From contig NZ_BDUB01000001.1 of the NCBI RefSeq assembly GCF_002218065.1, positions 2,637,270 to 2,701,269 of the forward strand: a stretch of 64,000 nt of DNA, written 5' to 3'. The DNA is from Nodularia sp. NIES-3585 (lineage in GTDB: Bacteria; Cyanobacteriota; Cyanobacteriia; Cyanobacteriales; Nostocaceae). Shown here piece after piece: positions 4,095-6,834 of this stretch. The translations under genes and the position numbers were made by a program. The first letter of the stretch is position 1; every line of letters starts with the position of its first letter. The notes beneath the pieces are model-generated. The model worked only from the letters and a program-made list of their open reading frames with translations. It searched no databases and had not been told where the DNA came from.

Positions 4095-4937
4095 ATGAAA
4101 CTGCGGCTATTTGAGCAAGAACAGGTAAAGGTTAAAAGAATATTGACTATAGCTGTGGTTACCGCATTGAGTGCAATTACCAGCGTTTCTTGTAGTCAGA
4201 ATAAAGATGTCTTGGTAACAGAAATTGGTATTAGTCCTCCTAACAGTCGGATAGCTCAAACATCCGCTGCTGGTAATCTCTATGTTCAGGCGAAAAATCA
4301 ACACCTCAGAGGTGACTTACAAGGAGCGATCGCTACCTATACCAAAGTTATTGATGTAGATTCAGATTATGCTCCAGCCTATCAGAGCCGGGGATTAGCT
4401 TACTTTGATGCGGGGGACAAACAAAGAGCGATCGCTGATTACAATCAAGCTATTAATCTTTCTCCTAATGATGCTGAAGCTTACAATAGTCGAGGAAATG
4501 CTCTGGCTTCTCTAGGAGATAACCAACGCGCGATCACCGACTATAACGAAGCTATTCGCCTCTCGCCTAGCTACGCGGAAGCCTATAATAATCGCGGAAA
4601 TGCTCGCGCCGCCCAAGGAGACAACAACGGGGCGCTCAATGACTTCAATCAAGCCATTAGCCTCGATTCTCGCTATGCCATTGCTTACAATAACCGTGGA
4701 AATGCTCGTGCGGCTCAAGGAGATGCACAGGGTGCGATCGCTGATTACAATCAAGCTATTCGCCTCAATTCCAATTTTGGCCCCGCTTATAATAATCGCG
4801 GAAATGCTCGTGCGGCTCAGGGAGACAAAGAGGGAGCGATTCAGGACTTACAACAAGCCGCAGGCATTTTTCAAGCACAAAATAGCAATGACTTATATAA
4901 ACAAGTGATGAACAATATTAGAGAAATAGGGCAGTAG
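4095..4937 (+). CDS. TPR-repeat lipoprotein
   Basis: 280 residues. A basic N-terminus and hydrophobic stretch (residues 15-32) end in SVSC at residue 33, a slightly atypical lipobox, so the protein is probably exported and lipid-anchored. From about residue 58 it consists of about six 34-residue tetratricopeptide repeats of the YNNRGNARAAQGD type, which form a scaffold for protein binding. The last three repeats are nearly identical at the DNA level with a 102-base period, suggesting recent duplication or homogenisation. GAAGG lies about 10 bases before the ATG. The partner and exact role are unknown. Confidence 0.85.
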   Translation: MKLRLFEQEQVKVKRILTIAVVTALSAITSVSCSQNKDVLVTEIGISPPNSRIAQTSAAGNLYVQAKNQHLRGDLQGAIATYTKVIDVDSDYAPAYQSRGLAYFDAGDKQRAIADYNQAINLSPNDAEAYNSRGNALASLGDNQRAITDYNEAIRLSPSYAEAYNNRGNARAAQGDNNGALNDFNQAISLDSRYAIAYNNRGNARAAQGDAQGAIADYNQAIRLNSNFGPAYNNRGNARAAQGDKEGAIQDLQQAAGIFQAQNSNDLYKQVMNNIREIGQ

Positions 4938-4993
4938 TGGCACTCAATTTGGGATTTTGGATGTAAGTTATTTCCGTCTTCCCATTTCTCTAT

Positions 4994-5338
4994 CTATTTA
5001 CCTAATAGAGATTCAAACTCAGCTTGTAAAGATGTGATGTCTGCCAGCCTAGCTACGAGGATATTCTCATTACCAGCATCAATTAATCGTACCTTCCAAT
5101 AACGAATACTCTCGGCATTATTTAACCAAAACTGCACTACAGTATCTCTTACTTGTTCGGTATTCCAACCAAATTTAACTGGTAACGGTTCCACAGTTTC
5201 TAACAAGGCATCTAATGTACATCTATGACTACTTAGATATTCTACGCCTCCTCTGTTTGGTCGCTTTATGGTCTGTTGCTGTTGACTAAAAAATTGCCAA
5301 GTAGGAGATATACCTACAATGTCAAATGTATATTTCAT
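4994..5338 (-). CDS. hypothetical protein, 114 aa
   Basis: A compact soluble protein of 114 residues with no membrane segment or motif I recognise. It begins MKYTFDIVGISPTWQFF and contains a central basic, polar region and an acidic C-terminal helix. Codon use looks like that of the neighbours, and a purine-rich GGGAGGG stretch lies just upstream of the ATG, so I consider it a real gene. It is convergent with the TPR lipoprotein gene, 56 bases away. No function can be assigned. Confidence 0.65.
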   Translation of the reverse strand: MKYTFDIVGISPTWQFFSQQQQTIKRPNRGGVEYLSSHRCTLDALLETVEPLPVKFGWNTEQVRDTVVQFWLNNAESIRYWKVRLIDAGNENILVARLADITSLQAEFESLLGK

Positions 5339-5473
5339 TCCAGCCCTCCCAATGATAAATTAGTTGTGTGGAAAATCTTTATGCGGCTTTAAAATTGTGG
5401 CTAAAAAACCTCTAAAGCTATCTAGAAAAACTATTTTTTTGCCGATGACATGGCAATATTCTTTTTTGGCAGA

Positions 5474-5500
5474 TTAGCACTCTCATCCAGCGAGTGCTAT
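5474..5500 (+). promoter_or_regulatory. CIRCE-like operator (HrcA binding site)
   Basis: The sequence is TTAGCACTC, nine bases, then GAGTGCTAT. The CIRCE consensus is TTAGCACTC-N9-GAGTGCTAA, so 17 of 18 arm positions match. A TATAAT-like -10 box begins in the last bases of the right arm (5499-5504), which is where a repressor site would block RNA polymerase. CIRCE normally controls groESL-type chaperone genes through HrcA. Here the next gene downstream is an EamA permease. The match is visible; the regulation is inferred. Confidence 0.85.
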
Positions 5501-5563
5501 AATTAGTTTAGTTATTTATTGTATTATTAATTATTTTTGAGGATTATTTGAGGGGGAAATTAT

Positions 5564-6478
5564 ATTTTTAATAATTTCTTAATAAATGGCAGAGGTGAAT
5601 TAGCCGCTTTAGCTGCTGCTGGTTTGTGGGCGATCGCTTCGGTGGTGTATGGCATGGTTGGGCAGCATATTCCACCGCTACGACTGAATTTGATCAAGGG
5701 GATAGTAGCGATCGCCCTGCTAATTCTGACCATCTTGCTAACTGGGGAATCCTTACCTGTCTGGGCCCCCATGCCAATTTTGCTGCTGTGCTTGAGTGGG
5801 GTAATCGGCATTAGTTGGGGTGATACTGCTTTTTTGGGGGCGATTAATTACTTGGGCCCACGCCGTGTTTTACTGATCAGCACCCTTGCGCCTCCCATGA
5901 CGGCGATCGCGGCGATGATTTGGCTTCAGGAAAGTTTAAATATCAGTGCTTGGTGTGGAATTTTGATCACCATTCTGGGTGTGGCTTGGGTAGTCACAGA
6001 ACGAGTTCCCGGTAATAGTGATGACTCCCCCGCGCACCTATGGCGAGGTATTGGTTTAGGCTTATTAGCCGCGATCGCTAATGCCATTGGCACAGTTATT
6101 TCTCGCGTAGCATTTACTACTGGTAACATGACATCTGTGTGGGCTGCCTTATTGCGCTTAGGTGCAGCCGAATTGATTCTTTTAGGGTGGATGTGGTTAC
6201 CCAACCGTCAAGCGTCAGCGATATCCTCTGACTACAGACAATCTGGGCGAGTGATTTTTGCCACTTGCTTTGCGGCTTTTTGTGGGACTTATTTGGGGAT
6301 TTGGCTACAACAGACAGCAATTAAATTCACGTCGGCGGGAATTGCGTCAACCTTGTTACAGACTAGCCCCATCTTTGTGATTCCTATTGCTATGTGCATT
6401 GGTGAAAAAGTTAGTTGGCGCGCGATCGCGGGTGTAATTATTGCCATTATCGGCATTGCATTGCTGTTTTTTTCCTAA
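5564..6478 (+). CDS. EamA/DMT-family membrane transporter, start codon unclear
   Basis: A ten-helix hydrophobic protein of the drug/metabolite transporter superfamily with two EamA halves (first about residues 1-145, second about 165-300); it probably exports or imports small metabolites. The first annotatable start, TTG at 5624, falls inside the first membrane helix (LAALAAAGLWAIASVVYG). The frame extends upstream to a stop at 5549-5551 without any ATG, GTG or TTG. The best extended start is ATT at 5564, eight bases after AGGGGG, giving 304 residues; ATA at 5582 is another choice. It lies 64 bases after a CIRCE operator. Function as a transporter is well supported; the start is not. Confidence 0.75.
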   Translation: MFNNFLINGRGELAALAAAGLWAIASVVYGMVGQHIPPLRLNLIKGIVAIALLILTILLTGESLPVWAPMPILLLCLSGVIGISWGDTAFLGAINYLGPRRVLLISTLAPPMTAIAAMIWLQESLNISAWCGILITILGVAWVVTERVPGNSDDSPAHLWRGIGLGLLAAIANAIGTVISRVAFTTGNMTSVWAALLRLGAAELILLGWMWLPNRQASAISSDYRQSGRVIFATCFAAFCGTYLGIWLQQTAIKFTSAGIASTLLQTSPIFVIPIAMCIGEKVSWRAIAGVIIAIIGIALLFFS

Positions 6479-6834
6479 GTAGCCGCAGTGCTGCTTGAGA
6501 TTATGGCAATTTGGCAGACAAAATTTGTCTGTTGCCGTTTTAATTGAGATATCAGCTGGGTTACTGAGGCAAATCGCTTCATAGTCTCAGAAATCCCACA
6601 CAATTGCCAGTTGCTGATCCTCGTGCTGTAAAATGCCCCTAAATGGTTGATACAGGTATTTACACACGAGTTCACCACTTCACTGCGACTGGCTAAAATT
6701 AAAACCAAAAACACATATAACTTCTCTCCAATTTGTCGGGTGGGTGAGGAAGATAGTCCGTAACCCACCACTATCTCTACAATTTTTGGGTAATTAATTT
6801 GTCTGAAGCCAGAAGCTTGCGTCTCGTTCTCTGG
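6479..6834. other. intergenic region between convergent genes, no supported gene
   Basis: A 98-codon open frame exists on the minus strand (6475-6771), but its protein has no recognisable family, no clear ribosome site and an uneven composition. I see nothing else convincing. It may hold a decayed gene. Confidence 0.4.

Follow-up and report, generated by a model that had tools for sequence, protein, structure and literature searches.

A palindrome of the CIRCE type in the genome of Nodularia sp. NIES-3585 is very probably an operator of HrcA, whose conserved client would be a divergent gene of 114 codons on the minus strand, and repression of this gene by HrcA as well as its induction by heat are predicted from comparative sequence data. 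The DNA examined, called here the window, is a stretch of 64,000 nt (assembly GCF_002218065.1, contig NZ_BDUB01000001.1, positions 2,637,270-2,701,269 of the forward strand). The site is rare in the genome, which contains a single hrcA gene, and is constantly paired with the 114-aa gene in the family of the window and in scattered lineages outside it. A chaperone is the customary client of a CIRCE, without being a defining one. A palindromic operator is, moreover, directionless and may serve either flanking gene or both, so that the EamA transporter gene on one side, the 114-aa gene on the other, or the two together are possible clients. The features of the locus are collected in Table 1.

Table 1. 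Features at the operator locus, in positions of the window.
Feature	Position	Strand	Remarks
114-aa gene, conserved partner of the operator	4994..5338	-	unannotated; protein spans 4997-5338
Putative leader of the 114-aa gene	5339..5473	-	135 nt stretch from operator to start
CIRCE-like operator	5474..5500	.	17/18 arm positions, nine-base spacer; conserved upstream of the 114-aa gene
Promoter-like pattern toward EamA, TTAGCA-18 nt-TATAAT	5474..5503	+	pattern score 10/12
EamA/DMT transporter	5564..6478	+	accessory neighbour; start uncertain, 5564 = ATT, first ATG/GTG/TTG in frame = TTG 5624

The operator reads TTAGCACTC-TCATCCAGC-GAGTGCTAT and follows the CIRCE consensus inverted repeat, TTAGCACTC-N9-GAGTGCTAA, with a single mismatch among the 18 arm positions. 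The preliminary description of this DNA was thus accurate in reporting a near-perfect CIRCE with the exact nine-base spacing, and also in reporting a TATAAT-like box that overlaps the right arm (TATAAT, 5498-5503). All 18 arm positions agree with the consensus in another genome of the same genus (G002, L044). With up to three mismatches allowed, this site is the sole match in the window, against a chance expectation of 0.03, and three of 100 shuffled windows gave a match. The genome-wide survey of CIRCE sites suggested in the preliminary description was carried out at the same tolerance on all four contigs (5.77 Mb), using the reversed pattern as a control. Four places were detected, namely two perfect CIRCEs, the operator with its one mismatch and a further place with three mismatches, which makes the operator one of three strong CIRCE sites genome-wide; the reversed pattern gave no match in the whole 5.77 Mb. 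One perfect site stands in front of a GroES frame, the other in front of a GroEL frame. There are two groEL genes in all, and each groE locus keeps its own perfect CIRCE. The single hrcA gene is located at C1:5357089-5357796.

The transporter had been described as the sole gene downstream of the palindrome within range. The 114-aa gene, however, begins 135 nt away on the opposite strand, divergent from EamA, with an ATG at 5338-5336 and a GGGAGGG ribosome site at 5350-5344. The idea of a CIRCE that fronts a gene other than a chaperone gene survives in so far as the client is not known as a chaperone, but its assignment to EamA was wrong. The transporter itself contains a confirmed EamA domain (PF00892, E 1.2e-33). 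Over positions 5564-5626, its open frame has no ATG, GTG or TTG before the conserved GELAAL, and an open frame devoid of these codons is also seen at 17 of the 94 EamA loci that bear a site; 66 of the 94 keep an in-frame ATT-TTT-AAT or ATT-TTA. This retained ATT hints at a possible AUU start of EamA, an idea weakened because the same AT-rich stretch is kept at loci without EamA.

Conservation was assessed in 145 genomes of the window's family (f1), which was taken as the Nostoc/Nodularia group and includes Nodularia, Nostoc, Anabaena and Anabaenopsis. The 114-aa gene was found once each in 134 of them, leaving 11 without it, and hrcA is present in 144, nearly always once. The counts of sites are based on 279 loci containing the 114-aa gene, 201 from the family and 78 from outside. 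After removal of 67 duplicates and of L276 (G150), which offers just 167 bp upstream with no site seen in them, the family set comprised 133 loci from 133 genomes. A site with at most three mismatches lies within 450 bp upstream of the gene in 132 of these 133 loci (130 at two mismatches or fewer, 91 at one or fewer), and the exception, L092, has two sites slightly further away, at -512 and -557. Twenty rounds of dinucleotide shuffling gave a mean of 0.0 sites in the family and outside sets alike.

Outside the family, the pairing is scattered. A class-wide search matched the 114-aa gene in 166 of 388 genomes, 22 of these in the family, and the outside set, which is not a random sample, was drawn from 69 of the 144 matched outside genomes together with nine EamA loci. 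Here a site is found at 12 of the 78 loci with three mismatches or fewer (11 at two or fewer, seven at one or fewer); the 66 loci that have none within 450 bp count against the assignment to the 114-aa gene. The twelve belong to groups f2, f8, f10, f18, f30, f48, f52 and f59, and the CIRCE is perfect in G199, G181 and G456. When sites with up to two mismatches were counted throughout 75 genomes, exactly three, one of them at the 114-aa gene, were obtained in G199, G181, G456, G427, G030, G173 and G196, and most outside genomes that have no site at this gene contain two. Seven others (G432, G414, G412, G436, G494, G521 and G544) have three sites with none at the 114-aa gene, which counts against this pattern; their third site may belong to another chaperonin gene. 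On a protein tree of 97 rows, site presence changes at least nine times; with 53 of its 93 inner branches open, the tree fits recurrent gain as well as recurrent loss. Conservation of the operator and the 114-aa gene on this scale makes a function likely.

The two candidate clients are separated naturally in several genomes. Twenty family genomes without an EamA match at 1e-60 were scanned with a relaxed CIRCE pattern: two sites were seen in each of the four that have no 114-aa gene (G010, G014, G044 and G062), and three or more in each of the 16 others. Twenty regions surrounding third or extra CIRCE-like sites were fetched, 17 from the scanned genomes and three from others. The 114-aa gene is present in 16 of these regions, 13 times with no EamA, twice with EamA fragments (L203, L209) and once with a full EamA (L204); the remaining four (L211, L216, L217, L218) hold groEL. 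Conversely, G040 and G088 contain an EamA gene without any site (L124, L125), and their 114-aa gene is found elsewhere with two sites each (L249, L250). The site stays with the 114-aa gene when EamA parts from it, and the operator therefore goes with the 114-aa gene. In addition, the nearest upstream frame is co-directional and stops before the site in seven of 14 site-bearing wider regions (L366, L371, L372, L376, L377, L378 and L385), which designates the 114-aa gene as the gene fronted by the site. The regions L203 and L209, in which an intact 114-aa frame and an operator stand beside EamA fragments, have the appearance of a decaying transporter next to a retained pair.

A search for EamA homologues in the 145 family genomes (E <= 1e-60) found the transporter in at least 89 genomes and 94 places, a lower bound given that G008 was missed despite its full EamA. 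An operator-like site was detected by arm pattern upstream of 91 of the 97 EamA loci examined. Among 22 loci added from the wider order, sites were present in L157-L159 only, all from one genus. Over these 119 EamA loci, the divergent 114-aa gene lies within 1.5 kb of all 94 site-bearing ones, some of which come from the same species, and of six of the 25 site-less ones. Outside the family, the two genes are adjacent at six loci that have no site.

These data bear directly on the two explanations in which the transporter is a client. HrcA might repress both genes from a shared divergent region, a tentative reading with a smaller but real chance of being correct. It draws on the position of the site at -135 or -136 from the conserved GEL codons in 49 of 91 EamA loci, and on the promoter-like pattern that faces EamA in this genome. 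This pattern is the best one at the operator and counts against the assignment to the 114-aa gene; four promoter-like patterns occur in the operator region, where shuffled sequences have 2.5 on average, and no strong one was found there on the strand of the 114-aa gene. The TATAAT recurs in L005, L006 and L009 but is missing from L007, L008 and L010, and is thus not conserved. A two-sided operator is also at odds with the site-less EamA genes of G040 and G088, with the six outside loci in which both genes adjoin without a site, and with the 15 sites beside which EamA is absent or broken. Co-repression of EamA could nevertheless still hold where it adjoins a site. That EamA alone is the client is very unlikely, even if the site is conserved upstream of most close EamA orthologues of the family: the 13 EamA-free regions, the two genomes just cited and the co-directional neighbours in seven wider regions all argue against it. 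EamA as a necessary client was rejected on the first two of these grounds, and with it the earlier proposal that a transporter had joined the heat-shock regulon.

Two further explanations concern the reader and the origin of the site. Some regulator other than HrcA, with a CIRCE-like target, could be involved, which is improbable. Many relatives have a degenerate arm on the side of the 114-aa gene, so that a different regulator stays conceivable: forms such as TTAGCAGTT (read toward EamA) and TTAGCAATT are common as left arms at the 114-aa/EamA locus and absent among the perfect groE sites listed. Many relatives also have two or three tandem operators, mostly in steps of 44-46 bp, with one arm conserved and the other degenerate (for instance L086, L088, L089, L093, L095, L097, L204, L205, L215, L249 and L250), an arrangement that is likewise absent among the perfect groE sites listed and could reflect cooperative binding or a different reader. 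The copies of L215 are identical and 57 bp apart. In a conservation profile of the 91 sites from the 97 EamA loci (85 distinct), the arms reach 1.62 and 1.93 bits and the spacer 0.41, values inflated for the arms by the choice of rows by arm pattern; the counts of 132/133 and 12/78 are independent of this profile. A point against HrcA as the reader is G017 (L207, L385): this genome gave no HrcA match (PF01628), yet it has the 114-aa gene as well as three CIRCE-like sites. A match to this family is present in G081 (L255), of the same genus. In favor of HrcA stand the canonical arms in the window and in G002, the imperfect arms that also occur at the chaperonin loci L211, L216 and L218, the near-universal hrcA of the family, and the perfect sites outside it in G199, G181 and G456. 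As to origin, the preliminary description had considered that rearrangement might have parted a groE promoter and its gene. Such a displaced promoter, or a chance match, has almost no probability left. Displacement was rejected because no groE gene of the genome is without its operator, both groEL genes having a perfect CIRCE of their own, and because the third site is conserved family-wide. Chance was rejected on the expectation of 0.03 in the window, the reversed control and the absence of sites in shuffled sequences at the 114-aa gene.

If the palindrome is the HrcA operator of the 114-aa gene, transcription of this gene would start at or near it, the simplest model by analogy with the groES transcript of Synechocystis, whose first nucleotide is also the first of the CIRCE loop (PMC2662882). 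Distances between the start codon of the 114-aa gene and its nearest site peak at 133-142 nt in the family, a range that accounts for at least 42 of the 87 loci with EamA and at least 26 of the 45 without it; in most outside cases the distance is near 180-240 nt. The leader RNA shows no excess structure in this genome (z 0.95; 165 of 200 shuffles fold equally well or better), the K-box consensus occurs in none of the 279 upstream stretches, and an Rfam search of positions 4900-6600 of the window gave no match.

The protein offers few clues of its own. The copy from the window has no Pfam match up to E 10 and no NCBIfam match above the cut-off (best E 0.053). Across 85 diverse members of the family, mean column identity is 56%, five residues are invariant (M1, F5, L42, W58 and W71) and C40 is nearly so. 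The matches of these members to Pfam (12 families, at most four members each, best E 2.6e-4) and to NCBIfam (10 families, at most four members each, best E 0.0034) are weak and scattered, and do not agree on any identity. In a profile search against solved structures, YbaQ (2eby), a helix-turn-helix protein, was the one match with an E-value under 0.01. It aligns with residues 30-93 at E 2.2e-4 (0.0011 when the single sequence was used), a weak match to be taken as a lead only. Structure prediction from a shallow input of seven sequences had a mean pLDDT of 46, no viral relatives were found, and the neighbourhood of the gene in 20 wider regions revealed no shared partner hinting at a function. 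The operator alone suggests a role in stress.

Two other CIRCEs of this genome, at C1:2122650 and C1:5207557, belong to groESL and the second groEL. The operator shares their 9-N9-9 palindrome, and the single hrcA gene would likewise supply its putative reader. It differs from them at one arm position, in its unannotated small client and in its tandem copies in many relatives. Its distance to the start codon is also longer: 135 nt, where groES has 27 nt and groEL, whose start is not fixed, has 8 or 32 nt. In Synechocystis, the published HrcA regulon comprises groES, groEL1 and groEL2; repressor and operator type are the same, but no such small gene is named in the accessible text of these reports (PMC2758279, PMC7760821). 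Microarrays of an hrcA mutant are reported to have also recorded changes in genes without CIRCE (PMC7760821). In related cyanobacteria, a diverged CIRCE accompanies groESL1.2, a third chaperonin operon (PMC5381637); this CIRCE and that of the 114-aa gene are both additional to those of groESL1 and groEL2, but the former fronts a chaperonin operon. The groEL-adjacent CIRCE-type sites mentioned above come from G062, G067, G009 and G050 (L211, L216, L217 and L218), and in the last three genomes are additional to two perfect sites elsewhere, in line with the third operon described in PMC5381637. The accessible text of the literature covered, which includes PMC2662882, PMC4755962, PMC7760821, PMC1978210, PMC8400943, PMC5381637, PMC7734504 and PMC2758279 and mostly excludes subscription journals, yielded no mention of a cyanobacterial CIRCE in front of EamA or of a comparable small gene.

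These comparisons are best read as placing the 114-aa gene in the cyanobacterial HrcA/CIRCE regulon, as an additional member with wide conservation. In unstressed cells, HrcA bound to the palindrome would block the promoter of the gene. Under heat or a similar stress, HrcA would lose its activity, as it does at groE, and the 114-aa protein would be made alongside GroES and GroEL. A bolder proposal, for which the chances fall somewhat short of even, is that this is an unrecognised cyanobacterial heat-shock protein and represents an ancient branch of the HrcA regulon in addition to groESL and groEL2. It might then be a partner of the chaperonin or, in view of the weak YbaQ match, a small DNA-binding regulator under HrcA, and the multiplied tandem operators in many strains of the family would make its control tighter or cooperative.

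The locus illustrates that a palindrome read one way only may lead to the assignment of an operator to the wrong gene. Cyanobacterial CIRCE appears in the accessible literature as a switch of chaperonin genes, and a new client would enlarge a very small regulon. Studies of HrcA would gain a target other than the known chaperones, and the operator gives the 114-aa protein its first functional lead, toward heat or protein stress.
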